From contig NZ_CP017077.1 of NCBI RefSeq assembly GCF_001742225.1, positions 434,001 through 498,000 on the forward strand: a DNA stretch of 64,000 bases. Reading direction: 5' to 3'. A program made the position numbers and the translations under genes. Origin of the DNA: Novosphingobium resinovorum (GTDB lineage Bacteria; Pseudomonadota; Alphaproteobacteria; Sphingomonadales; Sphingomonadaceae). Positions 40,474-57,793 of this stretch are shown here, one piece after another; position 1 is the first letter of the stretch, and the number at the start of each line of letters is the position of its first letter. The notes under the pieces were generated by a model, which was given only the letters and a program-made list of their open reading frames with translations, searched no databases and had not been told where the DNA came from.

Positions 40474-43400
40474 TCAGGCGCCCTGTCCGACCGGGATTGG
40501 CGTCTGCTGCGCCTCGACCATCGACTTCGGCTGCGTCAGTTCGCCGACTTTCGCGCGATAGGCGGCGATATTACCGAGCTTCACGTCCTCGTAGCCCCGG
40601 ATCAAGTCCGGCAGGGCGGCCAGCGCCAGCACCGTCTCCGGCTCCGTGGCGAGCCGGGGTAGTATGCTGCGGATCATCGCGCGGTATTCGCCGATCAGCG
40701 CCTTTTCCTGCGACCGGACCACGCCGATGCCGAACAGGTCGAGCGGACCGCCGCGCACGCGCCGGGCCCATGCCAGAAGACGCGCCATGGGTACGAACCA
40801 GCGGCCCATCTTCACCTTCCTGCGCACGCCCAGACGGCGCAGGAAGGTCGGGTGCAGCCACCACTGGAACGCCTGCCCGCGCGCGATCCGGCCGCTGGCG
40901 ACGTCGCGGTCGTACGCCTCGACGAAGAGACGCGCGACCTCGTATTCGTCCTTGTAGGCCATCAGCTTGTAGAGGTTGACGCCCAGCGTCTCGACCAGCG
41001 CCGCGCGGTGCGGGGAGCCGATGGCGGCCCCGGCGATCTCCTCGACGAAGGCCAGCCATTCCTCCGCATAAGCGCGGCTCTGGAAGGCTTCGAGTTCGCC
41101 GAAGCGCAGTTGCAGGCGTTCGGTCGCGGCGACAGGCAGGGCGAGCGCGTGAACCCTTGCGGCAGCATCGTCGGCGATCACCGGCGCGGGGACGGGCGGA
41201 TTCGCGCGCGCGTCAACGGCGGAATCGAAGGCGGCGCGGTCGAGCACGGCGAAGCGGCCCCAGCGGAACGCGGCGATATTGGTCTTCACCGCGACGCCGT
41301 TCAGGGTCATCGCCCGCTCCAGCGCGGCAGCGGAGATGGGCAGCGCGCCGGCCTGATACGCCGCGCCGATCATCATCATGTTCGCCGCCACCTCGTTGCC
41401 GAACAGCAGCCGCGCCGCGCGCAGGCCGTCGACCGCAATCGCGGTGGAGCGCATGTGCGCGCCGATCCGCGAGAGCAGGATCTCCTTCTCGGGATAGGGC
41501 GTGCGGACATTCGTGACGGTGCCGCCGGTGGGCACCGGATCGCAGTTGCCCACGAAGATCGTGCGGTCGGGTCGCGCCACTTTCAGATGTACCGGATCGG
41601 CGCCGGTCAGCAGGTCGAAGGCGACGTAGGCGTCGGCCTGCCCATCGGCGATGCGCACGGCCCCGGCGACGGGCGCGCGGTCGATATGCAGCATGGACAC
41701 CACCGGCCCGGCCTTCTGGCTGGAGCCGATCTGGTCGATCGAGCGCACGTGCAGCCCTTCCAGCGCGGCGGCCATGCCGAGCACTTGGTTGACCGTCACC
41801 ACACCGGTCCCGCCGATCCCTGCCATCAGCATCGCATAGCCGCGATCGGGCAGCACCGCGCCGGGATCGACGAGGGTGACGGGCGGCTCGCCCACCGGCT
41901 CGACCCTGGCCTCCTGCATCCCGCCGTCGACAGTGATGAACGAGGGGCAATCGCCCAGCAGGCACGAGAAGTCCGAATTGCACGAAGTCTGGTTGATCCG
42001 CGTCTTGCGGCCGAATTCGGTCTCGAACGGCTCGACGCTGAGGCAGTTGGACTTGACCCCGCAATCGCCGCAGCCTTCGCAGATGCGCGGGTTGATATAG
42101 ACCTTGTCGGTCTTCACCGCGAGATTGCCGCGCTTGCGCAGGCGGCGCTTCTCGGCGGCGCACTGCTGGTCGTTGATGAGCACGGTGACGCCCTTGACCG
42201 CCGCCAGTTCCCCCTCGACCGCGAGCAGGTCGTCGCGGTGGCGCACCGAGGCGAGTGCGGGCAGGGCGAGGCCCTTGTAGCGCTCCGGCTCGTCGGTGGT
42301 GACAACGATGCGCTGGACGCCTTCGGCCTTCAGCTGGTCGATGATGCCGGGCACGCTCTTGCCCGCGAACACGTCCTGCCCGCCGGTCATCGCCACGGCA
42401 GAATTGTAGAGCAGCTTGTAGGTGATGTTGATCCCCGCCGCCGCCGCGAAGCGGATCGCCAGGCTGCCCGAATGGGCATATGTCCCGTCGCCCAGGTTCT
42501 GGAAGAAGTGCTCGGTCCCGGTGAAGCGGTGGGCGCCGACAAACTGCGCGCCTTCGCCGCCCATCTGAGTATAGCCGGTGACTTCGCCCATGATCGGGCC
42601 CATCCACAAGGTCATGATGTGGCAGCCGATCCCGGCGCCGACGACCGACCCCTCCGGCACGCGGAGTGACCGGTTGTGCGGGCAGCCCGAGCAGAAATAG
42701 GGCTGGCGCGTGGTGGAAAGCGGCGCGTTCACCGCGCCGGGGTTCGCCGGTGCAGGGGCGCGCTCGATGCTCAGCCATGTCGCCAGCGCGGTCGCCATGA
42801 TCTCCACCGAGAGCTCGCCGCAGGCGGTCAGCAGCAGGCGGCCTTCGGGATCGTTGCGACCCCAGATGACCGGCGCGTCGGGCTTGCCGTAAAGCATGTC
42901 CTTGAGCGCGAGTTCGAGGAACGGGCGCTTGTCCTCCACCACGAAGATGCTTTCCAGCCCGGCCGCGAATTCGCCCGCCGTCTCGTGGTCGAAGGGATAG
43001 AGCATGCCCATCTTGAGGATGCGGATGCCGCGTGCCTCCAGTTCGGCGTCGTCGATGCCGAGCAGGCGCAGCGCCTCACGCAGGTCGTAGTAGCTCTTGC
43101 CGCCGACGAGGATGCCGTGCCTTGCCCGCTCGCCCGCGCCGAGCACGCGGTTGAGGCCGTTGAGCCGACCATAGGCACGCGCGATTTCGAGGCGGCCGTA
43201 ATAGATCTCCCGCTCACGCGCGATCATCGGCGGCCCCGCCTCGTTCGCGTGGAAGCGGGGGGTATAGGGGCGGCCGTCGTATTCGATCGCGGGGATGACG
43301 GGCTGCACCCGGTCCGGCCCGAGGTCGGCGGTGGCGGCGGAATCGGCGACGTCGGCGATCAGCTTGAAGCCCACCCACAGCCCCGCCGCGCGCGACAGGG

Positions 43401-43968
43401 CATAGCCGTGGCGGCCGTAGTCGAGCACCTCTTGCACGTTCCCCGGCGCCAGCACCGGCATGTAGAAGCTGCTGAAGATGGTGTTGGAATCGGACGGCAG
43501 GATGGTGGAGCGCGCATGGGGATCGTCGCCCGCCACGCACAGCACCCCGCCATGGGCGGCGGTGCCGTGGAAGTTGGCGTGGTGGAAGGCGTCGGCCGCG
43601 CGGTCGACGCCCGGCGCCTTGCCGAACCACAGGCCGAAGACGCCGTCGAATTTGGGCTTCGGAAGTTCCCCCACCATCTGCGTGCCGTAGAGCGCGGTGG
43701 CGGCCAGTTCCTCGTTCAGCCCCAGCTGGTGGAACACGTTCTCGGCCTCGAAATGCGGCGCATTACGCATCATCTCGCTGTCGACCCCGCCGAGCGGCGA
43801 GCCGGGATAGCCGGACACCAGCCCGGCCGTGCTCAACCCCGCCGCGCGGTCGGCGCGGGCCTGGTCGATCAGCACGCGCAGCATCGCCTGCATGCCCGTG
43901 AGGTACGTGCGCCCGCTCGCCTGCGTGTAGCGTTCCTTCAGGCTGATCGGCAGCAATTCGTTCGTCAT
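40474..43968 (-). CDS. Fused 2-oxoacid (indolepyruvate-type) ferredoxin oxidoreductase
   Basis: A 1,164-aa single-chain enzyme: N-terminal pyrimidine domain, then the TPP region YFCSGCPHNRSLRVPEG and GIGCHIMTLWMG, an iron-sulphur segment ICEGCGDCGVKSNCLSVEPF plus further Cys, and a gamma domain (MLMAGIGGTGVVTVNQVLGM). The family oxidatively decarboxylates aryl- or alkyl-2-oxoacids to acyl-CoA with ferredoxin. It follows enolase-type gene 1 by 25 bases, which supports a dehydratase-to-oxoacid-to-acyl-CoA sequence. Indolepyruvate itself is not implied; the substrate is probably the product of the enolase-superfamily enzymes. Confidence 0.9.
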   Translation of the reverse strand: MTNELLPISLKERYTQASGRTYLTGMQAMLRVLIDQARADRAAGLSTAGLVSGYPGSPLGGVDSEMMRNAPHFEAENVFHQLGLNEELAATALYGTQMVGELPKPKFDGVFGLWFGKAPGVDRAADAFHHANFHGTAAHGGVLCVAGDDPHARSTILPSDSNTIFSSFYMPVLAPGNVQEVLDYGRHGYALSRAAGLWVGFKLIADVADSAATADLGPDRVQPVIPAIEYDGRPYTPRFHANEAGPPMIAREREIYYGRLEIARAYGRLNGLNRVLGAGERARHGILVGGKSYYDLREALRLLGIDDAELEARGIRILKMGMLYPFDHETAGEFAAGLESIFVVEDKRPFLELALKDMLYGKPDAPVIWGRNDPEGRLLLTACGELSVEIMATALATWLSIERAPAPANPGAVNAPLSTTRQPYFCSGCPHNRSLRVPEGSVVGAGIGCHIMTLWMGPIMGEVTGYTQMGGEGAQFVGAHRFTGTEHFFQNLGDGTYAHSGSLAIRFAAAAGINITYKLLYNSAVAMTGGQDVFAGKSVPGIIDQLKAEGVQRIVVTTDEPERYKGLALPALASVRHRDDLLAVEGELAAVKGVTVLINDQQCAAEKRRLRKRGNLAVKTDKVYINPRICEGCGDCGVKSNCLSVEPFETEFGRKTRINQTSCNSDFSCLLGDCPSFITVDGGMQEARVEPVGEPPVTLVDPGAVLPDRGYAMLMAGIGGTGVVTVNQVLGMAAALEGLHVRSIDQIGSSQKAGPVVSMLHIDRAPVAGAVRIADGQADAYVAFDLLTGADPVHLKVARPDRTIFVGNCDPVPTGGTVTNVRTPYPEKEILLSRIGAHMRSTAIAVDGLRAARLLFGNEVAANMMMIGAAYQAGALPISAAALERAMTLNGVAVKTNIAAFRWGRFAVLDRAAFDSAVDARANPPVPAPVIADDAAARVHALALPVAATERLQLRFGELEAFQSRAYAEEWLAFVEEIAGAAIGSPHRAALVETLGVNLYKLMAYKDEYEVARLFVEAYDRDVASGRIARGQAFQWWLHPTFLRRLGVRRKVKMGRWFVPMARLLAWARRVRGGPLDLFGIGVVRSQEKALIGEYRAMIRSILPRLATEPETVLALAALPDLIRGYEDVKLGNIAAYRAKVGELTQPKSMVEAQQTPIPVGQGA

Positions 43969-43993
43969 CGCATCCTGCTCCGCGGGGCCACCG

Positions 43994-45133
43994 TCAGGTC
44001 CAGGCCGTCTTGCGGCCCTCGATCCGCGCGCCTTCCTCCAACTCGCCGACTTCGAGGAGTTCGACCGTCAGGCGCTCGATCTCGTCCATGTCGGCCTCGT
44101 ATCCCAGCCCCGGCTTGGTGGGCGCGCTGACCCAGCCGTCGGCATCGATCCACAGCTTGTCCTTCATGCCGATGTCGAGGCAACCCTGCGGCACCGCGAT
44201 CTCGACGAAATCGCAGTAATGGGTGGAGAGCATGACGTGCAGGTGCGCGGCCATGACGCTGACGGTGCCGTAGCTGTGCGGCTCGAACTTCATCTGGTTC
44301 GCCTCGCAGAAGGCGGCGGCCTTGCGCATGGCGGAGATGCCGCCGATCCAGTCGCCGATGGCGCGGATGGAATCGACCGCGCCGACGTACTTGGGATAGG
44401 CGCGCAGGCCCTGCTCGACGCTCTCCACCGCCGTCACCGGCAGGTCCAGCGCCTCACTCAGCATGCGCAGGCCCGGGATGTCGGAATCGGGCAGCGGCGT
44501 TTCGTACCAGTAGAAGTTCAGCTCATCGAGCGCGCGGCCCACCTTGAGCGCGCCCTGCCGGTCGTATTCGTTGATCGGGTCGAGCATCAGGTCCATCGTG
44601 TCGCCCACCGCCTCGCGCACCTTGCGGCAGATCTCGATGTCCTTGTCGGGGATGCCGGAGGGGTGGATCTTGTAGGCGTTGAAGCCCTGATCGCGGCATT
44701 CGAGCGCCAGCTGGCAGTATTCCTCGGGCGTGGCATAGTAGAAGGTGCTGGCATAGGCGCGGATGCGGTTGCGCGCGGCGCCGAGCAGGCGGTAGATCGG
44801 CTCGCCGTGGGCCTTGCCGATGAGATCCCACAGGCAGATGTCGATGGCGCTGGCGACGGGCGTGGGGCGCTCCAAACGGTCGGTCAGTTCGAACGAGATC
44901 GCCTCCACCTCATGCGGGTCGCGGCCGATCAGCACCGATTGCAGGCCGGGGAGGGCGTATTTGAACTCCATCGGGCTCATCAGGTAGGTCAGGCACTGGC
45001 CCTCGACACCCGGCACGTCGGTCAGCAGGCGCACGAAGACATGGTCTAGGCTGCGCGCCGCCCATTGCTCCTTCCATTTGTAGATCGGCTCGGTGCGCTT
45101 GAGGATGTGGGCCTTGATGCCGGTGATCTTCAT
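43994..45133 (-). CDS. Enolase-superfamily (mandelate racemase-like) protein 1
   Basis: A 379-aa barrel enzyme. Metal ligands D185, E211 and E237; the second strand shows K155-I-H157 where mandelate racemase has K-x-K; the base pair is D261 and H286 (EPHSYG). Acid-sugar dehydratases of this group turn 2,3-dihydroxy acids into 2-oxo-3-deoxy acids. The K-x-H variant is shared with protein 3 of this window but not protein 2. Start ATG 45133, 25 bases after the crotonase stop. It precedes the oxoacid oxidoreductase gene, which fits dehydration to a 2-oxoacid. Confidence 0.88.
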   Translation of the reverse strand: MKITGIKAHILKRTEPIYKWKEQWAARSLDHVFVRLLTDVPGVEGQCLTYLMSPMEFKYALPGLQSVLIGRDPHEVEAISFELTDRLERPTPVASAIDICLWDLIGKAHGEPIYRLLGAARNRIRAYASTFYYATPEEYCQLALECRDQGFNAYKIHPSGIPDKDIEICRKVREAVGDTMDLMLDPINEYDRQGALKVGRALDELNFYWYETPLPDSDIPGLRMLSEALDLPVTAVESVEQGLRAYPKYVGAVDSIRAIGDWIGGISAMRKAAAFCEANQMKFEPHSYGTVSVMAAHLHVMLSTHYCDFVEIAVPQGCLDIGMKDKLWIDADGWVSAPTKPGLGYEADMDEIERLTVELLEVGELEEGARIEGRKTAWT

Positions 45134-45158
45134 CTGAATGCTCTCCCAAATGTCCGTC

Positions 45159-46004
45159 TTATGCGGTCTTGCCCGAGGATCGGGCGCGGAAGGCGGCAAG
45201 TGCCGCCTCGAATTCCGGTTCGTAGGTACACAGGATCTGGTTGCGGTCTTCCAGCGCGATGACCTGCTCCAGCCCGCCTGCGTCGATGGCGCAATTGAGC
45301 GCCTCCTTGGTCAGTCGCAGGCCGAGCGGGGCGGTGGCCAGCATGTCGTCCACGAAACCCTGCACCATCGCGTCGATCTCGTCCGGCGGGGCGACGGCGG
45401 AGACGAGGCCGCCGTTGAGGGCGCGGGCCGCGTCGATGAAGCGGCCGGTCATCAGGAACTCGGCGGCGAACCCGGCCCCGGCGATGCGCGGCAGGAAGTA
45501 GCTGACGCCGATGTCGCAGCCGCTGAGGCCGATCTTCACGAAGGCGGCGTTCATCCGCAGGTCCGGCGTGGCGACGCGCACGTCTGCCGCCAGTGCCAGT
45601 GCGAAGCCGCCGCCGCTGGCCGCGCCGGTAAGGTGAGCGATGATCGGCTGCGGGCAGCGGCGCATGGCGATGACGATCTCGCTGATCCGCCGCTGGGCGA
45701 TGAGCGAACCGGCGGCGGTGGGATCGGCGCGGCCCTGCCGCTCCTTCATGTCGAGCCCGGCGCAGAAGTGCTTTCCGGTAGAACCCAGCACCACCACGCG
45801 GATGTCGTTGCGCCAATAGAGCCCCGCGAACAGGCGGCCGAGTTCGGCGATCAGCCGGTCGCTCAGGCTGTTCGCGGCATTCGGACGGTCGATGGTGACG
45901 CGCAACACCGCGCCGTCGCGGCGCAGCATGAGGTCGTGGAAGCTGGTGGGGTCAAGCGCGTCGTGCCCGTCAAGCAGGCGCGCAGGATCGGTTGTGTCCG
46001 ACAT
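45159..46004 (-). CDS. Crotonase-fold enoyl-CoA hydratase/isomerase
   Basis: A 281-aa crotonase with HFCAGLDMKE (oxyanion site 1) and GAASGGGFALALAADVR (site 2). The two hydratase glutamates are not conserved (the positions read A and K), but GCDIGVSYFLPR places an Asp like that of dienoyl-CoA isomerases. So isomerase or ring-type chemistry is likelier than plain hydration. It heads a three-gene operon (crotonase, enolase-type 1, oxidoreductase) with an operator 49 bases upstream. Confidence 0.85.
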   Translation of the reverse strand: MSDTTDPARLLDGHDALDPTSFHDLMLRRDGAVLRVTIDRPNAANSLSDRLIAELGRLFAGLYWRNDIRVVVLGSTGKHFCAGLDMKERQGRADPTAAGSLIAQRRISEIVIAMRRCPQPIIAHLTGAASGGGFALALAADVRVATPDLRMNAAFVKIGLSGCDIGVSYFLPRIAGAGFAAEFLMTGRFIDAARALNGGLVSAVAPPDEIDAMVQGFVDDMLATAPLGLRLTKEALNCAIDAGGLEQVIALEDRNQILCTYEPEFEAALAAFRARSSGKTA

Positions 46005-46052
46005 GGTCTGTTATCACTCTCCTTGAGGACGGCATAACATGGCCGGATAATA

Positions 46053-46068
46053 TTACAACACGTTTTCC
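46053..46068. promoter_or_regulatory. TetR-type operator candidate (crotonase operon)
   Basis: TTACAACACGTTTTCC: left arm fits 6 of 7 of the consensus, the right arm is poor. It lies two bases after the ABM gene stop and 49 bases before the crotonase start. Confidence 0.5.
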
Positions 46069-46069
46069 A

Positions 46070-46357
46070 TCATGCCACGACTTCCAGCTCCTCGATATGC
46101 GGCGGCTCGGTCAGGAATCCTTCGAGCAGGGGCATCAGTTCGACGACAAGCGGCTGCGCAAGGTGGCTGTCGGACGCTGCCATGTCGCGCCAGACTTCGA
46201 TCACAGTCCAGCGCCCGGCCTCGTCCGCGAACAGATCGTAGCGGATGCAGCCGGGTTCCTTGCGGGTTTCGGTGACGAGGGCCTTCAGGCGCTCGCCCAG
46301 TTCCGCGTGGCTTTCGCGGCGGGTGGTGAAGCGGACGATCCTGGGGATCTGCGGCAT
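46070..46357 (-). CDS. Antibiotic biosynthesis monooxygenase (ABM) domain protein
   Basis: A 95-aa ABM ferredoxin-like barrel protein: RIVRFTTRRESHAEL start, EPGCIRYDLFADEAGRWTVI, EVWRDMAASDSHL. Such small dimeric proteins oxidise quinols, act on aldehydes, or serve as accessory enzymes. Start ATG 46357 with GGGAG nine bases upstream; an in-frame ATG at 46381 overlaps the operator and is unlikely. It is divergent from the MFS gene, with a shared operator between them. Confidence 0.82.
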   Translation of the reverse strand: MPQIPRIVRFTTRRESHAELGERLKALVTETRKEPGCIRYDLFADEAGRWTVIEVWRDMAASDSHLAQPLVVELMPLLEGFLTEPPHIEELEVVA

Positions 46358-46375
46358 TCTGATTCTCCCGTTCAA

Positions 46376-46391
46376 TTGCATCGTGTTGCAA
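46376..46391. promoter_or_regulatory. TetR-type operator candidate (ABM/MFS divergent)
   Basis: TTGCATCGTGTTGCAA, a near-perfect dyad (6 of 7 left, 7 of 7 right). It lies 19 bases before the ABM start codon and 57 before the MFS start codon, so one repressor dimer could govern both. Confidence 0.65.
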
Positions 46392-46447
46392 TCTTGATAA
46401 CCCCGCTCTAATCATCGCGACAAGAGCAGAATCGAGAGAGGTCCGGC

Positions 46448-47713
46448 GTGGCAGAGGCACGGAGCGAATTGGGGCGCGACTGGAAGCTGGTCCTGACCTG
46501 CACCAGCGGCGTCGCGCTGGGGGCGATGAGCATCCCCATCTACACCATCGGCGCCTTCGTGCGGCCGCTGCAGGAGGCGTTCGGCTGGTCGCGCCCGGCG
46601 ATCCAGGCTTCGATCCTCGTCTCGCAGCTGTGCGTGGGGATCGGCGCGATCGCCTGCGGCTGGCTGCTGCGGCGCTATTCGATGCGGGCGATGGCGGCGA
46701 CCGGGCTGAGTGCGATTGCCATCGGCTTCCTGCTGGCCGCGCTTTCGGGCGGATCGCTGGCGTGGTTCTATTTCGCCTATGGCTTCGCGGCGCTCGTCGG
46801 CTGCGGCAGCGGGCCGGTGGTGTGGTGCCGGGCGATCACCCTGCGCTTCGAGAAGCAGCGCGGCATCGCGCTTGCCATCGCGCTGATCGGCACCGGCCTT
46901 GCGGGCCTGATCCTGCCGCCGCTGACCGTGGCGGTGGTCGACGGCGCGGGCTGGCGCACGGCTTACGTGATGCTGGCGCTGCTGCCGCTGTGCATCGCGG
47001 TGCCCGCCGCGCTGGTGCACCTGCGCGGGTTTCCCCGGGACCGAAGCGCCGACCCCGAAGCGCCTGCGACGGCAACGTCGGAATGGGGCGTCACCCCGCG
47101 CGATGCCGTGCGCTCCTACCGCTTCTGGCTGATCCTGCTGTCTGTGATCGTGCTCTATCTCTCGCTCGCGGGCTTCGTCCCCAACCTGATCCCGGCGCTG
47201 GAGGACAAGGGCCTGACCCCCTCCGAGGCCGCGATGGCACAGAGCAGCTTCGCCGCTGCGCTGATCGTCGGGCGGCTGGGGCTGGGCTACTTCCTCGACC
47301 GCTACTGGGCGCCGTTCGTGGCGCAGTTCACGCTGCTGCCCGCAGCGGCTGGGTGCCTGCTGCTCTCAGGCACGCCTGCGCCGATGACAGCGGCGGCTGC
47401 TGCGGCGATGGTGGGGCTGGCATCGGGCGCCGAGCTGGACCTGCTGGCCTACCTCACCGCGCGCTATTTCGGACGGCTCCATTTCGCGCGGATTTACGGA
47501 TTGCTCTACTTCGGCGTGGCGGCGGCCGCGGGTTCCGGACCGGTGCTGTTCGCGTGGGTTTATGGCCTGCCGGGCGGCGGGCGGACCGCGTTCCTGATCG
47601 CGATGGTGTTCTTCGTGGCAGGCGCGCTGGCGCTGCCCATGCTCGGCCGCTACCCCGGCACGGCGGCCGAGGACAGCGAGCCATCCCTGCCTAAAGGTGC
47701 CATCCCCCGGTGA
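46448..47713 (+). CDS. MFS transporter (oxalate/formate- or monocarboxylate-like)
   Basis: A 421-aa carrier with about 12 membrane spans in two halves; the central loop (about 195-220) separates them. Features include SRPAIQASILVSQLC in TM2 and GFVPNLIPALEDKG in TM8. Likely proton-driven transport of an organic acid. The start is GTG 46448 with GAGAGAGG upstream. The 3' end overlaps the convergent SDR by 23 bases. Controlled from the divergent operator at 46376. Confidence 0.88.
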   Translation: MAEARSELGRDWKLVLTCTSGVALGAMSIPIYTIGAFVRPLQEAFGWSRPAIQASILVSQLCVGIGAIACGWLLRRYSMRAMAATGLSAIAIGFLLAALSGGSLAWFYFAYGFAALVGCGSGPVVWCRAITLRFEKQRGIALAIALIGTGLAGLILPPLTVAVVDGAGWRTAYVMLALLPLCIAVPAALVHLRGFPRDRSADPEAPATATSEWGVTPRDAVRSYRFWLILLSVIVLYLSLAGFVPNLIPALEDKGLTPSEAAMAQSSFAAALIVGRLGLGYFLDRYWAPFVAQFTLLPAAAGCLLLSGTPAPMTAAAAAAMVGLASGAELDLLAYLTARYFGRLHFARIYGLLYFGVAAAAGSGPVLFAWVYGLPGGGRTAFLIAMVFFVAGALALPMLGRYPGTAAEDSEPSLPKGAIPR

Positions 47714-48368: not shown

Positions 48369-48379
48369 CGGCTGCTCCT

Positions 48380-49566: not shown

Positions 49567-50664
49567 TCAGTACCGCGCGATCGTGGCGTTATCGATGACG
49601 TCCCAGTCTATCTCGTAGCCGAGGCCCGGCGCGGTGGGGGCGTGAACCCAGCCGTTTTCGTCGATGTGGACGATGTCCTTCATGCCGAAGTCGAGGCCGT
49701 GGCGGGGATAGGGCATCTCGAAATAGGTGCAGTTCCGGCACGAGAGCATGTAGTGCAGGTGCGCCGCCTGAACGATGGTGGAGCCATAGGCGTGCGGCTC
49801 CATGCGGCGGCCGAGCATTTCCGCCGTGGCGCCGATCTTGCGCATGCCGGTGATGCCGCCGATCAGATCGCCGACGCCGCGCACCGAATCCGCTGCGCCT
49901 TCGACAAGGATGCTGCCCAGCTGCTGCGGCCCGCGCATCATCGCCTCGCCCATCAGCACCGGAATGTCGAGCGACTGGCACAACTGCCGGAAACCGGCGA
50001 TGTCCCAGTCGGGCATCGGGTCTTCGTACCAGAAGAAGTCCAGCTTCTCGAGCGCGCGGCCGACCTTGATCGCGTCTTCCCAGTCGTAGCTGTTGGTGGC
50101 GTCGAACATCAGCACGAAGTCGGGGCCCACGGCCTCGCGGGCGAGGCGGGCGGCCTCGATGTCCATCTTCGGATCGGGCTTGGCGCGTAGCTTGGCGGCG
50201 GGAACGCCGCGCTGCTTGGCCGCGAGGATCAGGTCGGCGACCTCCTGCGCGGTGTCCTGCGACTGCATGGTGTCGTAGACCGGCACTTTGTCGCGATAGG
50301 CGCCCAGCAGCTTGTAGACCGGCAGGTTCGCCATCTTGCCGGCGATGTCCCACAGCGCGAAGTCGATCTGGCTGGCGGCCTTGGGCGGGATCAGGAAGCG
50401 CGCCATGCCCATCATGTCGTGCCACAGCTTCTCGCGGTCGAGCGGGTCCTGGCCCATTATCATGGGCTTGAGGAAGTGATCGGCGGACTGCGCGATCTCG
50501 TGCGGGGCGGCGGGCAGCCAGGAGGTGGAGTAGCCGGTGATGCCTTCGTCGGTTTCCAGCTCGAACACGGTCATCGTCATGCTCACGGGCGGCAAGTCTT
50601 TGCGCCACATGAACTTGAAGTCGTCGGGCTGGACCACCCGGATCTTGAGGTCGGAGATACGCAA
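49567..50664 (-). CDS. Enolase-superfamily (mandelate racemase-like) protein 2
   Basis: A 365-aa barrel protein: K158-L-R160 on the second strand, metal ligands D188, E214, E240, and the D266/H291 (EPHAYG) pair. It is less like proteins 1 and 3 than they are to each other. Start ATG 50664, with the 11-bp direct repeat and a G9 run between it and the upstream SDR stop. Probably a dehydratase on another acid of the same pathway; epimerase activity is an alternative. Confidence 0.87.
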   Translation of the reverse strand: MRISDLKIRVVQPDDFKFMWRKDLPPVSMTMTVFELETDEGITGYSTSWLPAAPHEIAQSADHFLKPMIMGQDPLDREKLWHDMMGMARFLIPPKAASQIDFALWDIAGKMANLPVYKLLGAYRDKVPVYDTMQSQDTAQEVADLILAAKQRGVPAAKLRAKPDPKMDIEAARLAREAVGPDFVLMFDATNSYDWEDAIKVGRALEKLDFFWYEDPMPDWDIAGFRQLCQSLDIPVLMGEAMMRGPQQLGSILVEGAADSVRGVGDLIGGITGMRKIGATAEMLGRRMEPHAYGSTIVQAAHLHYMLSCRNCTYFEMPYPRHGLDFGMKDIVHIDENGWVHAPTAPGLGYEIDWDVIDNATIARY

Positions 50665-50691: not shown

Positions 50692-50720
50692 TAAAATTCA
50701 GGGGGGGGGTAAAATTCAGG
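50692..50720. repeat. 11-bp direct repeat flanking a G9 tract
   Basis: TAAAATTCAGG occurs at 50692-50702 and 50710-50720, with nine G at 50701-50709. It lies between the SDR stop and enolase-type 2 start. Length changes in the G tract would alter the spacing of these genes, but no coding frame is crossed. Confidence 0.55.
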
Positions 50721-51474
50721 CCATGACTCCGCCGCCGTTGACCTGGATGACCTCGCCGGTCGTCCAGCTGGCGCGCGAACTGGCGAGGAACAGCACGGCC
50801 TCGGTCACTTCCTCCGGGGTGCCGCGCCGTTGCATCGGGATGCCCCGGCTGACTTCGTCGACGGCGCCGGTGGTGTCGCTCTCGGTCATGGCAATCGCGG
50901 TTTCGGTGAGGAGCGGGCCCGGCGAGACGCAGTTGACGCGCACGGCGGGCGCCAGCTCGGCGGCGATGGCGCGGCTGAACGCCTCGACCGCGCCCTTGCT
51001 GGCGGCATAGAGCGAGAGCCCCGGCGTCGGCGTGCGCGCGGCGATGGACGAGATGTTGACGATGCTGCCCTTGCCGCGATGCGCCATGCCCGGCGCGATC
51101 TCGCGGCAGATGCGGAACAGGGCGTCGAAGTTGCAGGTCATCACGTCGCGCAGCATCGCATCGTCGGCATCGGCGAGTAGGGCGGCGGGGAAGATCCCGG
51201 CGTTGTTGACGAGGATGGTCGCCCCGCCCAGCGCATCGGCCGCCTCGCGCAGCCGCGCCGCCATGCCCGCATCGTCGAACGATGCGGCGACGCAGCGGAC
51301 CTCGACGGCGAAGTCGGAACGGATGCCCGCCGCGATTTCCTCCAGCCGCGCCGGGTCGCGCGCGGTGATGACGAGGGCGGCGCCCTCCTGCGCCATCCGC
51401 CGCGCGACGACGAGGCCGAGGCCGCGCGAACAGCCGGTGATGACGGCGACTTCGCCGCCGAGGATTCCAGTCAT
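50716..51474 (-). CDS. Classical SDR oxidoreductase
   Basis: A 252-aa SDR: TGCSRGLG (about 13-20), NNAGIF, catalytic Ser in VNISSIAARTPTPGLS and Y-A-A-S-K. Ordinary NAD(P) alcohol dehydrogenase features, unlike the neighbouring atypical SDR at 47691. Lies after the aldehyde dehydrogenase gene in the same message. Candidate step: oxidation of a secondary alcohol or diol. Confidence 0.85.
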   Translation of the reverse strand: MTGILGGEVAVITGCSRGLGLVVARRMAQEGAALVITARDPARLEEIAAGIRSDFAVEVRCVAASFDDAGMAARLREAADALGGATILVNNAGIFPAALLADADDAMLRDVMTCNFDALFRICREIAPGMAHRGKGSIVNISSIAARTPTPGLSLYAASKGAVEAFSRAIAAELAPAVRVNCVSPGPLLTETAIAMTESDTTGAVDEVSRGIPMQRRGTPEEVTEAVLFLASSRASWTTGEVIQVNGGGVMA

Positions 51475-51562
51475 CGTCTTCTCCCCCGGATGCGGTCGTT
51501 TGCGTGCCGCCCCGTAGCGTTGAGGTATCGTTGTGGTACCGTTAGGTGCCGCTGGGTGCCGT

Positions 51563-53044
51563 TCAGGCCAGTTGCGGATCGAGCATGATCGCCTTGGTCT
51601 CGCAGAACGATTTCAGCCCGTCGAACCCGCCTTCGCGGCCGATTCCGGACTGCTTGAAGCCGCCGAACGAGACGCCGAAGTCCATCCGGTGCAGGTTCTG
51701 CCCGAACGTTCCGGTGCGCACCTGACGCCCGACCGAATAGGCCTTTTCCCGGTCGTTGGTGAACACCGCGCCGTCGAGGCCGTAGTGGCTCTGGTTGGCG
51801 ATACGCACCGCGTCTTGCTCGTCCTTGGCGCGCAGCACGACGACGACGGGACCGAAGATTTCCTCCTGCGCGATGCGGGCACCGGGGTCGACGTCGGTGA
51901 AGATCGTCGGCTGGACATAGTAGCCTCGATTTAGTTCGGCCGGGCGCGAACCGCCTGTAATCATTCGACCTTCTCCCTGTCCGATGGCGATGTAGTCCAT
52001 CACCCGGTCGAACTGGCGGGACATTGCGAGCGGGCCCATCTGGCTGCCTTCGGCATAAGGATCGCCGACCTGGATCTGGTCGAAGCGGGTCTTCAGCGCC
52101 TCCACCATGGCATCGTGGTTGCGGTCGGTCACGACCACGCGGCTCAGCGCGGCGCAGACCTGATTGGTCATGTAAGCGGTTGAATTGGCAAGAGTCGTAG
52201 CCGCCTTGTCGACGTCGTAGTCATCCATCACCAGCGCCGCGGACTTGCCGCCCAGTTCCAGCGTGAAGCGCGCCACGCGCTCGGCGCAGAGCGAGCCGAT
52301 GCGCTTGCCCGCCGCCGTGCTGCCGGTGAAGCTTATCTTGTCCACGCCGGGATGGCGCACCAGACGTTCCGACGCCTCGCGGTCGGCGGTGACGAAGTTG
52401 ACGACGCCCGGCGGCAGGCCGATCTGGTCGATCATGTCCATGATGACATAAGGCCCCAGCGGCGCCTCCGGGGAAGCTTTGAGCACAACCGTGCAGCCCG
52501 CCAGCAGCGCCGGGGTCATCTTCACCAACGCGAGGATGAAGGCCGCGTTCCACGGGATGATCGCGCCGACGACGCCCACCGGTTCGCGCACCAGCAGCGC
52601 CTCGCCGCCAAGGCCGTCGGTGGTGGGCTGGGTCTCCTGCCAGGGGAAGGTTTCGGCGAAGCGCACGTGCTGGTCGATGTACCCGGCGAAGGCCGCGCCG
52701 CCGCCCTGCGAGACGGCATGGACGATGCCCATCTCGCGCGTCCAGGCATGGCCGAGTTCGACCGATCCGGCGCGCACGAGATCGGCTAGCTTGACCAGAT
52801 AGCCCGCGCGTTCCCTGGGCGTCATGCGCGGCCAGGGGCCGTTGTCGAAGGCGTCGCGCGCGGCGGCGACGGCGCGGTCGATGTCCTCGGCGGTGGCCTC
52901 GGCGATGTCGACCTGCACTTCCTCGGTCGCGGGATCGACGTGGTGGAACACCCGGCCGCTGAGCGGGGCGACCCACTCGCCGCCGATGTAGAAGCGATCG
53001 GGGTGAGCGATGGAGAACGCACCGTCCGCAGAAGTCCAGGTCAT
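51563..53044 (-). CDS. Aldehyde dehydrogenase
   Basis: A 493-aa NAD(P) aldehyde dehydrogenase with N166 (IIPWNAAF), E263 (LELGGKSA) and nucleophile C297 (TNQVCAAL). Start ATG 53044, eight bases after GAGGAG; an in-frame TTG at 53050 is less likely. It would convert the aldehyde made by the PQQ alcohol dehydrogenase gene upstream into an acid for the enolase-type enzymes. Confidence 0.92.
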   Translation of the reverse strand: MTWTSADGAFSIAHPDRFYIGGEWVAPLSGRVFHHVDPATEEVQVDIAEATAEDIDRAVAAARDAFDNGPWPRMTPRERAGYLVKLADLVRAGSVELGHAWTREMGIVHAVSQGGGAAFAGYIDQHVRFAETFPWQETQPTTDGLGGEALLVREPVGVVGAIIPWNAAFILALVKMTPALLAGCTVVLKASPEAPLGPYVIMDMIDQIGLPPGVVNFVTADREASERLVRHPGVDKISFTGSTAAGKRIGSLCAERVARFTLELGGKSAALVMDDYDVDKAATTLANSTAYMTNQVCAALSRVVVTDRNHDAMVEALKTRFDQIQVGDPYAEGSQMGPLAMSRQFDRVMDYIAIGQGEGRMITGGSRPAELNRGYYVQPTIFTDVDPGARIAQEEIFGPVVVVLRAKDEQDAVRIANQSHYGLDGAVFTNDREKAYSVGRQVRTGTFGQNLHRMDFGVSFGGFKQSGIGREGGFDGLKSFCETKAIMLDPQLA

Positions 53045-53110
53045 CGACAATCTCCTCTATTTCGGCCGTTGCCGGGCCGATCTTATTGTTGGGTCAGGCG
53101 AATCTATCCC

Positions 53111-54256
53111 TCAGGAAAGCGTCCGCCCGATGACTTCCTTCAGCACTTCGGATGTGCCGCCGTAGATCCGCTGCACCCGCGCATCGCGCCAGAGCCGGGC
53201 GATCGTGTACTCGTTCATGTACCCGGCGCCTCCGTGGATCTGCAGCGCCTCGTCGGTGATCTTCCACTGCATTTCGGTGTGCCACAGCTTGGCGGCGCAG
53301 GCCTCTTCGTTGGTCAGGCGTTCCTCGGCCATGCGGGTGATGCAGTGGTCGAGGTGCGCCCAGCCGACCTGCAGCATCGCACGGTGTTCGGCGAGGGTGA
53401 AGCGGGTGTTCTGCATGTCGAGCAGCGTGGTGTTGAACAGCTTGCGGTCGCGCGCGAAGCCGAGCGCCTCGTCGAAAGCCCGCTGCGCGCCGGCCTGACC
53501 CATGACCGCCTGACTGAGCCGTTCCTGGGGAATCAGTGTCATCACCTGAATGAAGCCGTTGTTCTCCTGCCCGAGCAGGTTTTCGGCGGGAATGCGCACG
53601 TCGTCGAAGAACAGTTCGGAGGTATCCGCCGAATGCTGGCCGATCTTGTCCAGCTTGCGCCCCTTGGCGAAGCCCGGCGTGCCCTCGTCGACGAGGAACA
53701 GGCTGAGCCCGCGCGCGCCGAGGTCCGGGTCGGTCTTGGCCAGCACGATCACCACGTCGCAGTGCTTGCCGCTGGAAATGTAGGTCTTCGACCCGTTAAT
53801 GACGTAGTCGCCGCCATCGCGCCGGGCGCTGGTCTTGATGCCCTTGAGATCGGACCCCGCGCCCGGCTCGGTCATGGCGATGGCGGTGACGACCGAGCCG
53901 TCCACCATGCCGGGCAGGTAGCGCAGCTTCTGCTCCTCTGTGCCGAAATCGACGAAGTAATCGGCGATGATGTCGGACTGCAGCGGCAGGCTGGCGGACG
54001 ATCCGGCGTAGGACAGCTCCTCCGTCACCACCGCGTTGTAGCGGAAGTCCAGACCCAGCCCGCCGTAAGCCTCGGGCACGGTGGGGCAGAGCAGGCCCGC
54101 TGCGCCCGCCGCGCGCCAGAAATCGCGGTCCACTTCGCGCTGGTCCTCGAACCGGTCGAGGTTGGGAAGGAGGTGCTGCGCGAAGAACTTGCGCACACTG
54201 TCGCGAAACATCGCGTGTTCTTCGCCATAGCAGCCCCGCTCTAAGGGAATGGGCAT
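53111..54256 (-). CDS. Acyl-CoA dehydrogenase (long-chain/IVD-type active site)
   Basis: A 381-aa FAD enzyme: AMTEPGAGSDLKGIKT (127-142), YISSGKH, IHGGAGY. At the usual catalytic site the sequence is IYGGTSE (no Glu), but E245 in LIPQERLSQA is at the location used by long-chain and isovaleryl-CoA dehydrogenases. Start ATG 54256 lies 20 bases after the PQQ dehydrogenase stop. It oxidises an acyl-CoA produced by the oxidoreductase branch. Confidence 0.88.
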   Translation of the reverse strand: MPIPLERGCYGEEHAMFRDSVRKFFAQHLLPNLDRFEDQREVDRDFWRAAGAAGLLCPTVPEAYGGLGLDFRYNAVVTEELSYAGSSASLPLQSDIIADYFVDFGTEEQKLRYLPGMVDGSVVTAIAMTEPGAGSDLKGIKTSARRDGGDYVINGSKTYISSGKHCDVVIVLAKTDPDLGARGLSLFLVDEGTPGFAKGRKLDKIGQHSADTSELFFDDVRIPAENLLGQENNGFIQVMTLIPQERLSQAVMGQAGAQRAFDEALGFARDRKLFNTTLLDMQNTRFTLAEHRAMLQVGWAHLDHCITRMAEERLTNEEACAAKLWHTEMQWKITDEALQIHGGAGYMNEYTIARLWRDARVQRIYGGTSEVLKEVIGRTLS

Positions 54257-54276
54257 AGGCCTCCTTGCGTCCTTCC

Positions 54277-56448
54277 TTACTTGCTGCCGAACTCGACGCT
54301 CTTGTGCGCCTGGTCGATGACGTAGGCGCGGATCGCGTTGACCTCTGCCGGGGTGTAGTTGGGGGCGAAGCTGACCATGCCCTGATCCTTGAGCAGTCCT
54401 TGCAGGACCACGGAATCCCATGCTTCCTGATTGCCCAGCGTGCCCGAATAGCGCAGGTCGGGCAGCACGCCGCCGCTCATCGCGCCGTAGCCGTGGCAGC
54501 CGTAGCAGGAACGGTGGTAGATCTGCCGTCCCTCCTCGATCGTCGCGGCATCGGCGAACTGGGGCGGCGGGGAGAGGGTGTTGTCGGCCCCGGCCTTCAT
54601 CGCGGGCAGGGCGGCCTTGCCGTCCAGCGCGAACGTCAGCACGCGGCTGATGTTGCGGCGCGGGCCGGTCTTGCCCCAGTTGATCGGGCCGACGCCGAGG
54701 CCCTCGGTCGTGCCCCAGCCCACCATGATGGTGACGTACTGCGTGCCGTCCTTCGCCCAGCTGATCGGCGCCGCGACGATGCCGGACTGTGCGTCGAAGC
54801 TCCACAGCTTGCGGCCGTCCTTGACGTCGTAGGCGTTGAAGTAGCCGGTCGATCCGCCCTGAAACACGAGGCCGCCCGCGGTGCTGAGCACGCCGCCGTT
54901 GGCGCCGTTGGGCATCGGCACGCGCCACGCGGCCTTGCCCTTCACCGGATCCCACGCGGTGAGGAAGCCTTTGACCGTCTCGCGCGCCTTCTCCAGCTTG
55001 ACCGGCTCCACGGGCAGCTTGTTGACCGAGACGTCGGAGCCGATGTTGTACCCGCGCGGCAGTGGCTTGAAGTTCTTCGCCAGCTCGTAAGTGAAGCCGA
55101 TCTCCTGCGTGGGCAGGTAGACGAGGCCGGTCTGCGGGTTGAACGACATCGGTGGCCAGCCATGCGCGCCCTGCGGTCCGGGCACCGAACTCCACGGCTT
55201 GCCGGTGAGCGAATAGTTCGCCTCCCGCCTGGTGCGCGGGCGGCCGGTCTTGAGATCGACGCCGTCGGCCCACGTCACCTTGGAATACGGCTCGGCCGAG
55301 ATCAGCTTTCCGTTCTGCCGGTCGAGCACGTAGAAGAAGCCGTTCTTGGGCGCCTGCATCAGCACCTTGCGCACTTTGCCGTCGATCTTGAGATCGGCCA
55401 GGATCATGTGCTGGGTGGACGTATAGTCCCACTGGTCGCCAGGCGTCGCCTGATAGTGCCAGACGTATTCGCCCGTCTCGGGCCGCAGCGCGAGGATCGA
55501 GGCGACGAAGAGGTTGTCGTTGTTGCCGCCCGGATAGGGGTTCGGGCTGCGGTACTTCTGCGGCCAGTAGCTGCCATTGCCGACGCCGACGTAAAGCAGG
55601 TCCAGATCGGGATCGTAGGCCATCGAATCCCAGACCGTGCCGCCGCCGTTGCCGTTGCTGATCTTCCAGTGATCCTTGTCCCAGGTCTTCTTCGCCAGCT
55701 TGTCGAGGATGGCGTCGGACGCGGCATTGTCCGGGTGTTCCGGGTCGCCGGGCACGGTGTAGAAGCGCCATGCCATCGTGCCGGTGTCGGCGCGATAGGC
55801 CGAGACGTAGCCGCGCACGCCGAATTCGGCACCGCCGTTGCCGATCATCACCAGCCCCTTGACGATGCGCGGGGCGCCGGTGATCGAATAGGGCTTGTTG
55901 GGATCAATCGTCATCGTCGACCAGACCTGCTGGCCGGTCTTGGCGTTGATGGCGATCAGGCGGCCGTCGATGGTGCCGACGAAGACCTTGCCGTCCCAGT
56001 AGGCAACGCCGCGATTGACGACGTCGCAGCAGGCGTTGACGGCGGCATCGCCGGGCACCTTTGGGTCGAACTGCCACAGCAGCTTGCCGGTCACACCGTC
56101 GAAAGCCTGCACCTTCGACCAGGCGCTGGAGGTGTAGATCACGCCGTCGACGACGATCGGGGTCGATTCCTGCCCGCGATTGGTGTCCAGATCGTAGGAC
56201 CACGCCAGCTTGAGCTCGCCGATGTTGCTCTGGTTGATCGAATCGAGCGGGCTGAACCGGGTTTCCTGATAATTGAGGCCGGTGGTCAGCCAGTTGCCCG
56301 GCTCCTTGGCGGCAGCGACGATCCGCTCGCCGAAAGTGGTGTCGAGCGGGGCATCGTTGGCGTCGCCCGAACCGGGCGCCTTTCCGCAACCGGCGCTTGC
56401 CAGCAGGGCAAGCACGCAGGCGGATTGTAGCAGCGTACGGCTAATCAT
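54277..56448 (-). CDS. PQQ-dependent quinohaemoprotein alcohol dehydrogenase
   Basis: A 723-aa periplasmic enzyme: signal peptide (about 1-20, possible lipidation at C21), eight-bladed PQQ propeller with the vicinal disulphide C140-C141, catalytic-site NDNLF (Asp followed by N-L, so not the D-x-D lanthanide signature), and a C-terminal cytochrome c domain with CYGCH (about 648-652) and a distal Met in GMVSF. It oxidises alcohols and passes electrons to the haem domain. ATG 56448 is preferred (GAGAGGA); ATG 56463 is possible. Operator 111 bases upstream. Confidence 0.92.
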
Positions 56449-56558
56449 CGGTCCTCTCATCATCCCACCGGTTCTTTTCGCTTTTTGTCAGGGATGCCGC
56501 TCTTCGGCTGTGGCCGGAGCGGCGTCCCTGTGCTCGGTTCCCAAATGCGTAAGGTATT

Positions 56559-56574
56559 TTGTAACGTGTTGCAA
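56559..56574. promoter_or_regulatory. TetR-type operator candidate (PQQ operon)
   Basis: TTGTAACGTGTTGCAA, left arm 7 of 7 and right arm 6 of 7 to the consensus, the best-scoring copy. It is 111 bases before the PQQ dehydrogenase start; from here genes to 47691 are co-directional. Confidence 0.68.
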
Positions 56575-56674
56575 TTGTTTGGTGCTATCGGCGCGATGTT
56601 TATAAAAATATCTATTTAAAACAGATGTATGTATGATCGTCCGAGTAGGAACTATCGCGCCGAATCCGCGTCCG

Positions 56675-57793
56675 TCAGAAGTAGTGCATGGAAGCCGGTT
56701 CGTTGGCCGACAGCATGCGGACGGTGAGATCGTCGATGGCGTCCTCGTCGATCTCGTAGCCGAGGCCGGGCTTGGTCGGCGCGGGGACGCAGCCGTCGGC
56801 ACCGACGCGCAGCGAGTCCTTCATGCCGATGTCGAGGATGCCCGTGGGCACCGGCAGTTCGACCAGTTCGCAGTTGTGGACCGAGAGCATCACATGGAAA
56901 TGCGCGGCCTGGATCAGCGTCGATCCGTAGCTGTGCGGTTCGTAGTTAATGCCGAAAGCCTCGCACAAGTGCGCGGTCTTGCGCATGGCGCTGATGCCGC
57001 CGACCCAGTCGCCGATCGCACGCACCGAATCGACTGCCTGCGCGGTGAGATAAGGCGGCACCGCCTTGAAGCCGAGGCGTAGGCTTTCCAGCCCGGCGAT
57101 CTGCACGCGGAAGCTGCGCGACAGGTCGGCAAGGCCCTGGATATCGGTGTCGTCGATCGGCGCCTCGTACCAGAAGAAGTTCATCTCCTCGAGCGCGGCG
57201 CCCACTTCGAAGGCTTCGCGGCGGTTGTAGGCGTTCACCGGGTCGAGCATCAGGTCCATGCTGTCGCCCACCGCCGCGTGGACGGCGCGGCACACCTCGA
57301 TGTCCCGCTTCGCTTCGCCCCAGGCGTGTAGCTTGAACGCGGTGAAGCCTTCGGCGCGGCATTCGTGGGCCAGCTTCACGTAGTCGTCGACGGTGGGATA
57401 GGTCACGGTGCTGGCATAGGCGCGCACCTTGTGCCGCGCGGCGCCGAGCACCTTGTAGACCGGCAGGCCCGCCGCCTTGCCGATCAAGTCCCACAAGGCG
57501 ATGTCGATGGCCGAGGCGATCGAGGTCGGCTGCGTGAGGCGATCGGTCAGTTCGTAGGACAGTGCCTCCACGTCATGCGGGCTGCGTCCGATCAGGATGC
57601 CGCGCAGCCGCGCCAGCGCGTCCTCGACATGGCCGGGGCCGGTCAGCCAGGTGATGCACTGGCCTTCGATCCCTTCGTCGGCGATGATCCTGAACAGCAG
57701 CATCCCGATCGATTTCTCGGGCCAGTCTTCCTTCCATTTGAAGCCGGTATCGAGCGGCTTGAGCTGCTGCACTTTCAGATCGACGATCTTCAT
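56675..57793 (-). CDS. Enolase-superfamily (mandelate racemase-like) protein 3
   Basis: A 372-aa barrel protein: K154-L-H156, metal ligands D184, E210, E236, and D262/H287 (EPHSYG). Closest to protein 1 of the window (shared FKWKEDWPEKS/YKWKEQWAARS start, GLGYE end). Start ATG 57793; the longer open frame to 58003 has no ribosome site. Its own operator lies 73 bases upstream and it is divergent from receptor 2. Same pathway role inferred: dehydration of a hydroxy acid. Confidence 0.88.
   Translation of the reverse strand: MKIVDLKVQQLKPLDTGFKWKEDWPEKSIGMLLFRIIADEGIEGQCITWLTGPGHVEDALARLRGILIGRSPHDVEALSYELTDRLTQPTSIASAIDIALWDLIGKAAGLPVYKVLGAARHKVRAYASTVTYPTVDDYVKLAHECRAEGFTAFKLHAWGEAKRDIEVCRAVHAAVGDSMDLMLDPVNAYNRREAFEVGAALEEMNFFWYEAPIDDTDIQGLADLSRSFRVQIAGLESLRLGFKAVPPYLTAQAVDSVRAIGDWVGGISAMRKTAHLCEAFGINYEPHSYGSTLIQAAHFHVMLSVHNCELVELPVPTGILDIGMKDSLRVGADGCVPAPTKPGLGYEIDEDAIDDLTVRMLSANEPASMHYF

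Follow-up and report, generated by a model that had tools for sequence, protein, structure and literature searches.

Which compound would be degraded by the enzymes encoded at and around positions 40474..57793 of a 64,000-nucleotide stretch of Novosphingobium resinovorum (the window: bases 434001-498000 of a 960,805-base contig, in a 6.92-Mb genome of five contigs), and do these enzymes form one pathway? Judged from its sequence, this island looks like a putative regulon for the breakdown of a haloalcohol or epoxide, with a CoA-bound acid as the product and with co-expression predicted; none of the titles and abstract openings listed in literature searches describes this gene combination. An initial annotation had read the island as one catabolic unit leading from a diol through a hydroxy acid and a 2-oxo acid to acyl-CoA. 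The single unit is supported. So is the back half of that route, in which a hydroxy or dihydroxy acid gives a 2-oxo acid and then acyl-CoA, by oxidase genes beside related oxidoreductases in Rhodococcus and by a run with a dehydratase gene in Variovorax. The diol as starting compound is revised: a short-chain dehydrogenase/reductase (SDR) resembling halohydrin dehalogenase (HHDH) and an epoxide hydrolase (EH) point instead to entry as a haloalcohol or epoxide.

We propose that the island is a single catabolic regulon, induced by its substrate, which would be a vicinal haloalcohol or epoxide with a terminal alcohol group as well. The substrate would enter through TonB receptors, the HHDH-like SDR would close the halohydrin to an epoxide, and EH would open the epoxide to a diol, which in this scheme is an intermediate. 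A pyrroloquinoline quinone-dependent alcohol dehydrogenase (PQQ-ADH) and an aldehyde dehydrogenase (ALDH) would oxidise the terminal alcohol to the acid at the end carbon, three paralogous enolase-superfamily proteins (ENO1, ENO2 and ENO3), probably for different stereoisomers, would remove water from the 2,3-dihydroxy acid to give a 2-oxo acid, and a fused 2-oxoacid ferredoxin oxidoreductase (IOR) would turn the 2-oxo acid into acyl-CoA and CO2. An acyl-CoA dehydrogenase (ACAD) and crotonases would then begin a breakdown resembling beta-oxidation, and a TetR repressor of the island would control the genes at a shared operator. We prefer this scheme, but taken in full it stops just short of what we would call probable.

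Gene order and the predicted operator

Gene families were assigned by Pfam and NCBIfam profile scans, and all the families named initially are present at or near the positions given for them. That inventory was right for the named enzymes and omitted the ABM gene (46070-46381), a second SDR gene, SDR2 (50716-51474), and the plus-strand gene of a major facilitator superfamily (MFS) transporter (46448-47713). Its extent, 40474..57793, was too small: the co-regulated unit appears to reach beyond it on both sides, over ~35.9-66.3 kb, and beyond the enzymes originally named it holds three TonB receptors, the MFS transporter and a TetR gene. The features are as follows.

35917..36669, minus strand: SDR0, ordinary NAD(P) short-chain dehydrogenase (Pfam; PRK07231 226.7 bits, cut-off 215), downstream of TBDR0
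36690..39026, minus strand: TBDR0, TonB-dependent receptor (Pfam), operator ~76 bp upstream
39103..39118, plus strand: putative operator in the TBDR0/TauD-like intergenic region, core exact, palindrome with 2 mismatches
39386..40323, plus strand: TauD/TfdA-like dioxygenase gene, frameshifted near 39.9 kb (two Pfam halves in two frames)
40474..43968, minus strand: IOR, fused 2-oxoacid (indolepyruvate-type) ferredoxin oxidoreductase (NCBIfam; GDG...N and CEGCGDC motifs)
43994..45133, minus strand: ENO1, enolase superfamily (MR/MLE) (Pfam, NCBIfam, PDB matches, tree)
45159..46004, minus strand: ECH, crotonase-family protein (profile matches)
46051..46063, minus strand: putative operator upstream of ECH-ENO1-IOR, not a source of the motif
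46070..46381, minus strand: ABM-domain small protein (profile match), start possibly further in
46376..46391, plus strand: putative operator palindrome between ABM and MFS, 1 mismatch, one source of the palindrome
46448..47713, plus strand: MFS transporter, nearest to lactate/oxalate types, below cut-off (Pfam, NCBIfam)
47691..48368, minus strand: HHDH-like SDR (halohydrin dehalogenase B-like), proposed to interconvert haloalcohol and epoxide (PDB matches, motifs)
48380..49564, minus strand: EH, epoxide hydrolase of microsomal/juvenile-hormone type, proposed to turn epoxide into diol (Pfam, PDB matches, GGDWG nucleophile motif)
49567..50664, minus strand: ENO2, enolase superfamily (MR/MLE) (Pfam, NCBIfam, PDB matches, tree)
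50716..51474, minus strand: SDR2, ordinary NAD(P) short-chain dehydrogenase (Pfam; PRK07231 218.7 bits, cut-off 215)
51563..53044, minus strand: ALDH, aldehyde dehydrogenase (Pfam, NCBIfam)
53111..54256, minus strand: ACAD, acyl-CoA dehydrogenase, start at 54256 (Pfam, NCBIfam)
54277..56463, minus strand: PQQ-ADH, type II quinohaemoprotein alcohol dehydrogenase with C-terminal cytochrome c (Pfam, NCBIfam; CC and CYGCH motifs)
56559..56574, plus strand: putative operator ahead of the PQQ-ADH run, an exact copy of the palindrome and one of its sources
56675..57793, minus strand: ENO3, enolase superfamily (MR/MLE), start at 57793 (Pfam, NCBIfam, tree, structure model)
57871..57883, plus strand: putative operator core between ENO3 and TBDR1 (motif match)
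58109..60247, plus strand: TBDR1, TonB-dependent receptor (Pfam)
60296..62638, plus strand: TBDR2, TonB-dependent receptor (Pfam)
62781..63704, plus strand: TetR-family regulator, ORF as called, true start probably internal (helix-turn-helix nearest KstR among NCBIfam models)

Because the plus-strand MFS gene stands between them, the minus-strand genes form separate runs. One reads ENO3, operator, PQQ-ADH, ACAD, ALDH, SDR2, ENO2, EH and HHDH-like SDR, with 20 to 88 bp between neighbours from PQQ-ADH to ENO2; ENO2 and EH are 2 bp apart, and the gene of the HHDH-like SDR directly follows EH after 11 bp. The other reads ABM, operator, ECH, ENO1 and IOR. Coding-composition scoring chose 11 of the 13 gene frames in 40474-57793 and preferred opposite-strand ORFs over the HHDH-like and ACAD frames, so that these two rest on protein matches. 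The Pfam match of SDR0 is the C-terminal part of a longer ORF, 35917-37470. The larger unit also takes in a Zn-alcohol dehydrogenase gene and two crotonase genes just to the right of the window (L097 40-2249), whose end cuts through the first crotonase gene.

The shared operator came out of a comparison of seven intergenic regions: one word recurs in those of ENO3/TBDR1 and TBDR0/TauD, and PQQ-ADH is preceded by a related word (2 hits; of 20 base-shuffled sets, one gave 1 hit). The pattern ACRTGTTGYAAWW, written from the sites at 39108, 57871 and 56564 and from one spotted by eye at 46382, is matched perfectly at just four places of the 6.92-Mb genome, every one of them inside the island; three are sources of the pattern, and the fourth, at 46051-46063 and ~46 bp before the ECH-ENO1-IOR run, was not used in deriving it. 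Single-mismatch matches number 21, of which 20 lie elsewhere and one, at contig position 500304, stands ~55 bp before the Zn-alcohol dehydrogenase gene outside the window and likewise had no part in the derivation. Altogether, 25 matches at up to one mismatch compare with 13 for a reversed-pattern control, and five sites of the window match the core CRTGTTGYAA without a mismatch, against 0.22 in shuffles, four of the five having been seen previously. We also wrote a palindrome, TTGYAACRYGTTRCAA, from the sites at 56559 and 46376; no further place in the genome listing has fewer than two mismatches to it. Six island sites were aligned, and an operator-like site is found ahead of every unit of 40474..57793. 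The co-regulated units of the initial annotation are thus predicted here as well, with strong sequence support for co-regulation through this operator.

It is unlikely that two or more unrelated modules, one for a haloalcohol or epoxide and one for a sugar acid or aromatic acid, share a regulator and a location here with no common intermediates. Such a patchwork would agree with the transposase genes on the left, the relaxase gene on the right and the lack of conserved co-occurrence elsewhere, but PQQ-ADH, ACAD, ALDH, SDR2, ENO2, EH and the HHDH-like SDR follow one another closely, 2 to 88 bp apart, in a single run, and an operator-like site precedes each unit, its pattern having no perfect match elsewhere in the genome.

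For the regulator we infer that the island TetR protein, a candidate repressor, acts at the shared operator. Its helix-turn-helix is nearest KstR among NCBIfam models (34.9 bits, well short of the equivalog cut-off of 280). The literature used for comparison, in excerpts, comprises PMC7793797, PMC8700777, PMC4989007, PMC13188929, PMC3414701, PMC11976700 and PMC1995591, the last of which gives the KstR operator motif as TnnAACnnGTTnnA. The site at 56560, before the PQQ-ADH run, reads TnnAACnnGTTnnA and is the sole exact fit in the window and the next 20 kb, while the other island operator sites deviate from the motif. The regulator and the operator are, on these grounds, compatible.

The resemblance to KstR also recalls steroid breakdown, and one may ask whether the island encodes a pathway of steroid or terpenoid type, similar to that of the edc oestrogen cluster in Caenibius (Novosphingobium) tardaugens, with IOR acting on a ring-cleavage product. 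As described in excerpts of PMC7793797, that sphingomonad cluster has, like the island, an IOR (EdcC), an ACAD, a TonB receptor and a TetR repressor, and deletion placed EdcC after ring cleavage, acting on a product that carries a 2-oxo acid part. However, the edc cluster feeds its IOR from ring meta-cleavage, and neither an extradiol dioxygenase nor a P450 occurs among the island ORFs scanned; the EdcR operator, as excerpted, is unlike that of the island, and the edc paper uses the terms "enolase", "epoxide hydrolase" and "PQQ" 0 times each. We consider a pathway of this type highly improbable.

The putative dehalogenation and epoxide-opening steps

The SDR gene directly after EH had been described as dehalogenase-like, and its product does have halohydrin dehalogenase B as its best PDB match. 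Among 469 PDB matches, 60 of them listed, the top two are HheB (4zd6, E 3e-72; 5b12, 1.7e-71), followed by 7b73 (4.6e-56) and 8xxb (4.3e-52), both deposited as SDR, the former of which we take to be HheD2; beyond 8xxb the E-values fall to 1e-25 or weaker and the matches are other SDRs, a few of them named dehalogenases. HHDH motif 2, S-X12-Y-X3-R with the catalytic Ser-Tyr-Arg, is exact at residue 119 of the frame used (motif definitions from excerpts of PMC4989007 and PMC11976700), and the glycine-rich NAD-binding motif is absent from this protein and present in SDR0 and SDR2. On these matches and motifs we claim that the SDR at 47691..48368 would work like a halohydrin dehalogenase. EH carries the EHN domain PF06441 (6.3e-35) and the alpha/beta hydrolase domain PF00561, with the Asp nucleophile motif GGDWG, and among solved structures it comes closest to epoxide hydrolases, those of juvenile hormone and microsomal type among them; 5f4z matches with 1.2e-99.

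Since the front end of the route consists of these two enzymes, the likely entry compound is a vicinal haloalcohol or an epoxide. If the small ABM-domain protein is set aside, the island ORFs scanned include no epoxide-forming monooxygenase family, which argues for a haloalcohol or epoxide that is imported. The same ORFs include no AMP-binding ligase, CoA-transferase or CoA ligase; a CoA ligase would be unneeded because IOR would yield acyl-CoA directly. The TauD/TfdA-like gene is split over two frames, by a frameshift or by a sequencing error, and because this gene of the regulon is broken, one oxidative step may have been lost or may be supplied elsewhere. A glycerol-type C3 substrate was considered and dropped, since the three TonB receptors, ACAD and crotonases would presumably be needless for it.

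The closest precedent for the proposed entry is haloalcohol degradation in Agrobacterium radiobacter AD1 and Corynebacterium N-1074, where HHDH and EH convert haloalcohol to epoxide to diol. Excerpts of the sources name Corynebacterium N-1074 as the origin of HheB and describe HHDH with EH as the lower route of an AD1-based strain. Those strains were enriched on epihalohydrins and haloalcohols, whereas the island pair shares its run with genes for PQQ-ADH, ALDH, ACAD and an enolase-superfamily protein. According to an excerpt of PMC4989007, only two of the HHDH genes then known share an operon with an EH gene, and other physiological roles are possible. With the HHDH-like gene in a run with EH, oxidases and ACAD under a predicted shared operator, the substrate could be sought through induction. 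The ibc isobutylene pathway of Mycolicibacterium sp. ELW1 likewise uses EH and alcohol and aldehyde dehydrogenases to go from epoxide through diol to hydroxy acid, but it starts with a monooxygenase and treats 2-hydroxyisobutyrate with a CoA ligase and a cobalamin-dependent mutase, and the excerpts show no IOR.

The enolase-superfamily trio and the oxidoreductase

How, then, would a hydroxylated acid become the 2-oxo acid that IOR uses? ENO1-3 carry both Pfam domains of the enolase superfamily, mandelate racemase subgroup. In that subgroup the metal ligands are Asp, Glu and Glu, a Lys lies on strand 2, and a His-Asp dyad occupies strands 7 and 6. Lys154, Asp184, Glu210, Glu236 and His287 (ENO3 numbering) are kept in all three proteins, and in a model of ENO3 (mean pLDDT 89.5, pTM 0.90) K154, D184, E210 and E236 lie in or beside strands, according to the secondary structure of the model. 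ENO1 and ENO3 are 55-56% identical, ENO2 and ENO3 42%. A tree was built from 122 sequences, with 119 of the 124 enolase-like places kept at 300-480 residues without X and 5 dropped. The three form one group in it with SH-aLRT 90, and a Bathyarchaeota protein comes next with 88; this was a quick search with SH-aLRT only, and the branch uniting ENO1-3 is not among the starred branches. Such a grouping fits gene duplication around related substrates.

Among NCBIfam models, those that score best with ENO1-3 are mostly acid-sugar dehydratases (arabinonate, talarate/galactarate and others), and all listed scores lie below cut-off, the best of them, 150.9 bits against 500, belonging to ENO2. A comparable cluster contains a dehydratase of another family. 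On a Variovorax paradoxus VAI-C plasmid (CP063167.1 1594706-1608932; L251 16707-30933), which resembles the island in having PQQ-ADH, ALDH, ACAD, MFS and IOR with a dehydratase, the genes of ACAD, MFS, dihydroxy-acid dehydratase and IOR form one run with gaps of 11-21 bp, and a PQQ-ADH 51.5% identical to that of the island, with a divergent ALDH, lies ~2.6 kb from the ACAD-IOR run. To our knowledge this cluster is uncharacterised. Because its run pairs a dihydroxy-acid dehydratase with IOR, we favour the order dihydroxy acid, 2-oxo acid, acyl-CoA. The Variovorax dehydratase is of IlvD/Edd type (NF004784 877.6 bits, cut-off 539) whereas the island slot holds enolase-superfamily proteins, the Variovorax IOR falls outside the 20 best plasmid matches of the island IOR, and, unlike the island, the stretch has no HHDH or EH annotated. 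Unrelated families in one slot are what functional replacement would look like, here in a single case. If the ENO proteins are dehydratases, the link from dehydratase to IOR would have arisen with two unrelated dehydratase families, and polyols would have a route to acyl-CoA that does without a CoA ligase.

Alternatively, a 1,2-diol might be oxidised to a 2-hydroxy acid, with the ENO proteins acting as racemases in the manner of mandelate racemase, an SDR or the Zn-alcohol dehydrogenase making the 2-oxo acid and IOR the acyl-CoA, while the HHDH-like SDR and EH would deal with by-products or with another substrate. The listed PDB matches of ENO1 and ENO2 include mandelate racemase structures, those listed for ENO3 (60 of 176) hold only putative mandelate racemases, and two ordinary SDRs and the Zn-alcohol dehydrogenase lie in or beside the regulon. 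Moreover, 2-hydroxyacid-oxidase-like genes occur near IOR in 4 of 57 IOR loci, a chosen sample in which each side mostly extends up to ~8-12 kb, contig ends truncate some loci, and loci L201 and L251 supplied query proteins; MR/MLE genes occur in 3 of the 57 and PQQ-ADH genes in 2. The island ORFs scanned, however, include no 2-hydroxyacid oxidase of FMN or FAD type, most top models of the trio are the dehydratases noted above, and the corresponding Variovorax slot is filled by a protein that passes a dihydroxy-acid dehydratase model. We therefore regard racemases in this role as rather unlikely.

The IOR itself passes NF009589 (1317.4 bits, cut-off 816) and NF009588 (1118.7, cut-off 952), and its closest relatives are 46.9% identical among the plasmid matches listed; the sample of the order gave 47% for a partial match, that of the class 46%. 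The top-ranked plasmid match (46.6%), in a mandelate-like cluster of Rhodococcus opacus VOC-14 plasmid NZ_CP130954.1, adjoins genes annotated as alpha-hydroxy acid oxidase, FAD-linked oxidase and benzoylformate decarboxylase; unlike the island, this stretch has no enolase-superfamily, EH or HHDH gene annotated. On the Rhodococcus DK17 plasmid, too, an IOR relative adjoins an FAD-linked oxidase, and the Rhodococcus oxidases would presumably make the 2-oxo acid of the IOR beside them.

A more specific form of the dehydratase reading can be given. The island may be dedicated to turning a multi-hydroxyl compound, halogenated or epoxidised, into acyl-CoA, with an enolase trio of rearranged active site that makes 2-oxo acids for the fused IOR; to do so the trio would strip water, or even halide, from 3-hydroxy- or 3-halo-2-hydroxy acids. 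Mandelate racemase is able to expel a leaving group. We offer this as a possible but, on balance, doubtful refinement; if true, it would place a halohydrin dehalogenase in a regulated physiological pathway leading into CoA metabolism.

Distribution and surroundings of the island

An ENO1 query against 195 genomes of the genus gave matches of at least 40% identity only in the own genome, and in the 194 others the sole enolase match at E <= 1e-40 was 34% identical, in one genome; among 196 genomes of the order, no outside enolase match (E <= 1e-30) exceeded 35% identity, and a broad genome-contig search (80 loci kept) gave 40% for the closest relative among the matches listed. The HHDH-like SDR has matches in 7 of 289 genomes of the class at E <= 1e-45 and in 2 of 149 of the genus at E <= 1e-40, both counts including the own genome, with zero matches in 72,556 plasmid records at 1e-30. 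In a Pseudomonadales metagenome-assembled genome (L062, 2514-8188) a TonB-dependent receptor, PQQ-ADH and MR/MLE gene form one tight run, the last two 4 bp apart, which speaks for the proposed pathway logic. On a contig of a Dehalococcoidia metagenome-assembled genome (L014, 434-3818) three tandem MR/MLE genes lie between two genes that look glyoxalase-like from their first residues.

The proposed haloalcohol scheme has to be weighed against a number of observations that speak against it. The full gene set is found once in the data searched: the conserved co-occurrence in other genomes that the initial annotation had suggested looking for did not appear, and queries with the enolases, crotonase, IOR, HHDH-like SDR, EH and PQQ-ADH gave no second locus with the full set. 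Regional tblastn scans took in 11 of 11 ENO2 and 20 of 20 crotonase matches outside the own genome, and of the 20 listed rows per plasmid search we inspected the neighbourhoods of 4 for IOR, 2 for enolase and 5 for PQQ (one record unannotated). EH is near IOR in none of the 57 IOR loci, and a dihydroxy-acid dehydratase in one, namely the locus that supplied the query. IOR had no match at 1e-15 in the 86 enolase-relative loci, some only a few kb long; for one of them (G017) a longer stretch has an IOR ~6 kb away, beside sugar-acid-like genes. The 7 HHDH relative loci (3.6 to 20 kb each) showed no EH, MR/MLE, PQQ-ADH or IOR at 1e-8, and the EH family is common on plasmids (408 of 72,556 records at E <= 1e-50). 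Gene proximity is in any case weak evidence by itself, because the MR/MLE genes near IOR in L162 and L194 and the PQQ gene near IOR in L228 look coincidental, the neighbours in L194 resembling sugar-acid catabolism and those in L228 being recA- and alaS-like, as judged from protein starts.

The proteins and the operator add further points of this kind. Thiolase is absent from the island ORFs scanned. HHDH motif 1, T-X4-F/Y-X-G, appears as SMAELYMG, with Ser in place of the Thr that is kept in 6 of 6 class relatives aligned; since the strict motif is not present, we call the protein HHDH-like and not a strict HHDH member. Ser-for-Thr mutants of HheC and HheG still have detectable activity, and natural variants at the Thr occur (excerpt of PMC11976700). 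ENO1-3 lack Asp at the usual dyad position: where most aligned relatives have the Asp of the RxDVxxxGG motif, they carry Ile or Val, and a different Asp follows two residues later, as also in the relative L024. The sites at 56559 and 46376 head the genome list of TTGYAACRYGTTRCAA because the palindrome was written from them, and at up to three mismatches it has no genome enrichment (54 places against 48 for the control).

Around the island, Tn3-type transposase pieces and an IS110-type transposase lie to the left (window 31072-35477), in a stretch whose third-position GC is lower than that of the island genes, and a TrwC relaxase gene lies ~4-7 kb beyond the right window end. A composite transposon with a matching insertion sequence at both ends was considered and dropped: comparison of the window with 40 kb to the right and 20 kb to the left gave only a 0.7-kb match (5.1-5.8 kb) with the flanks. 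Between the TauD-like gene and IOR, the self-complementary stretch at window 40371-40447 (85% over 78 aligned bases) is perhaps a REP-like element. Further left, window 15327-20446 holds a run of genes for a PhaC-like synthase, a MaoC-phosphotransacetylase fusion, acetate kinase and a FabI-like protein, and similar runs are present on sphingomonad plasmids at ~75-78% DNA identity. For the left part of the window the 141 matching plasmid records are mixed, and the six best-covered matches are sphingomonads at 75.6-77.7% identity.

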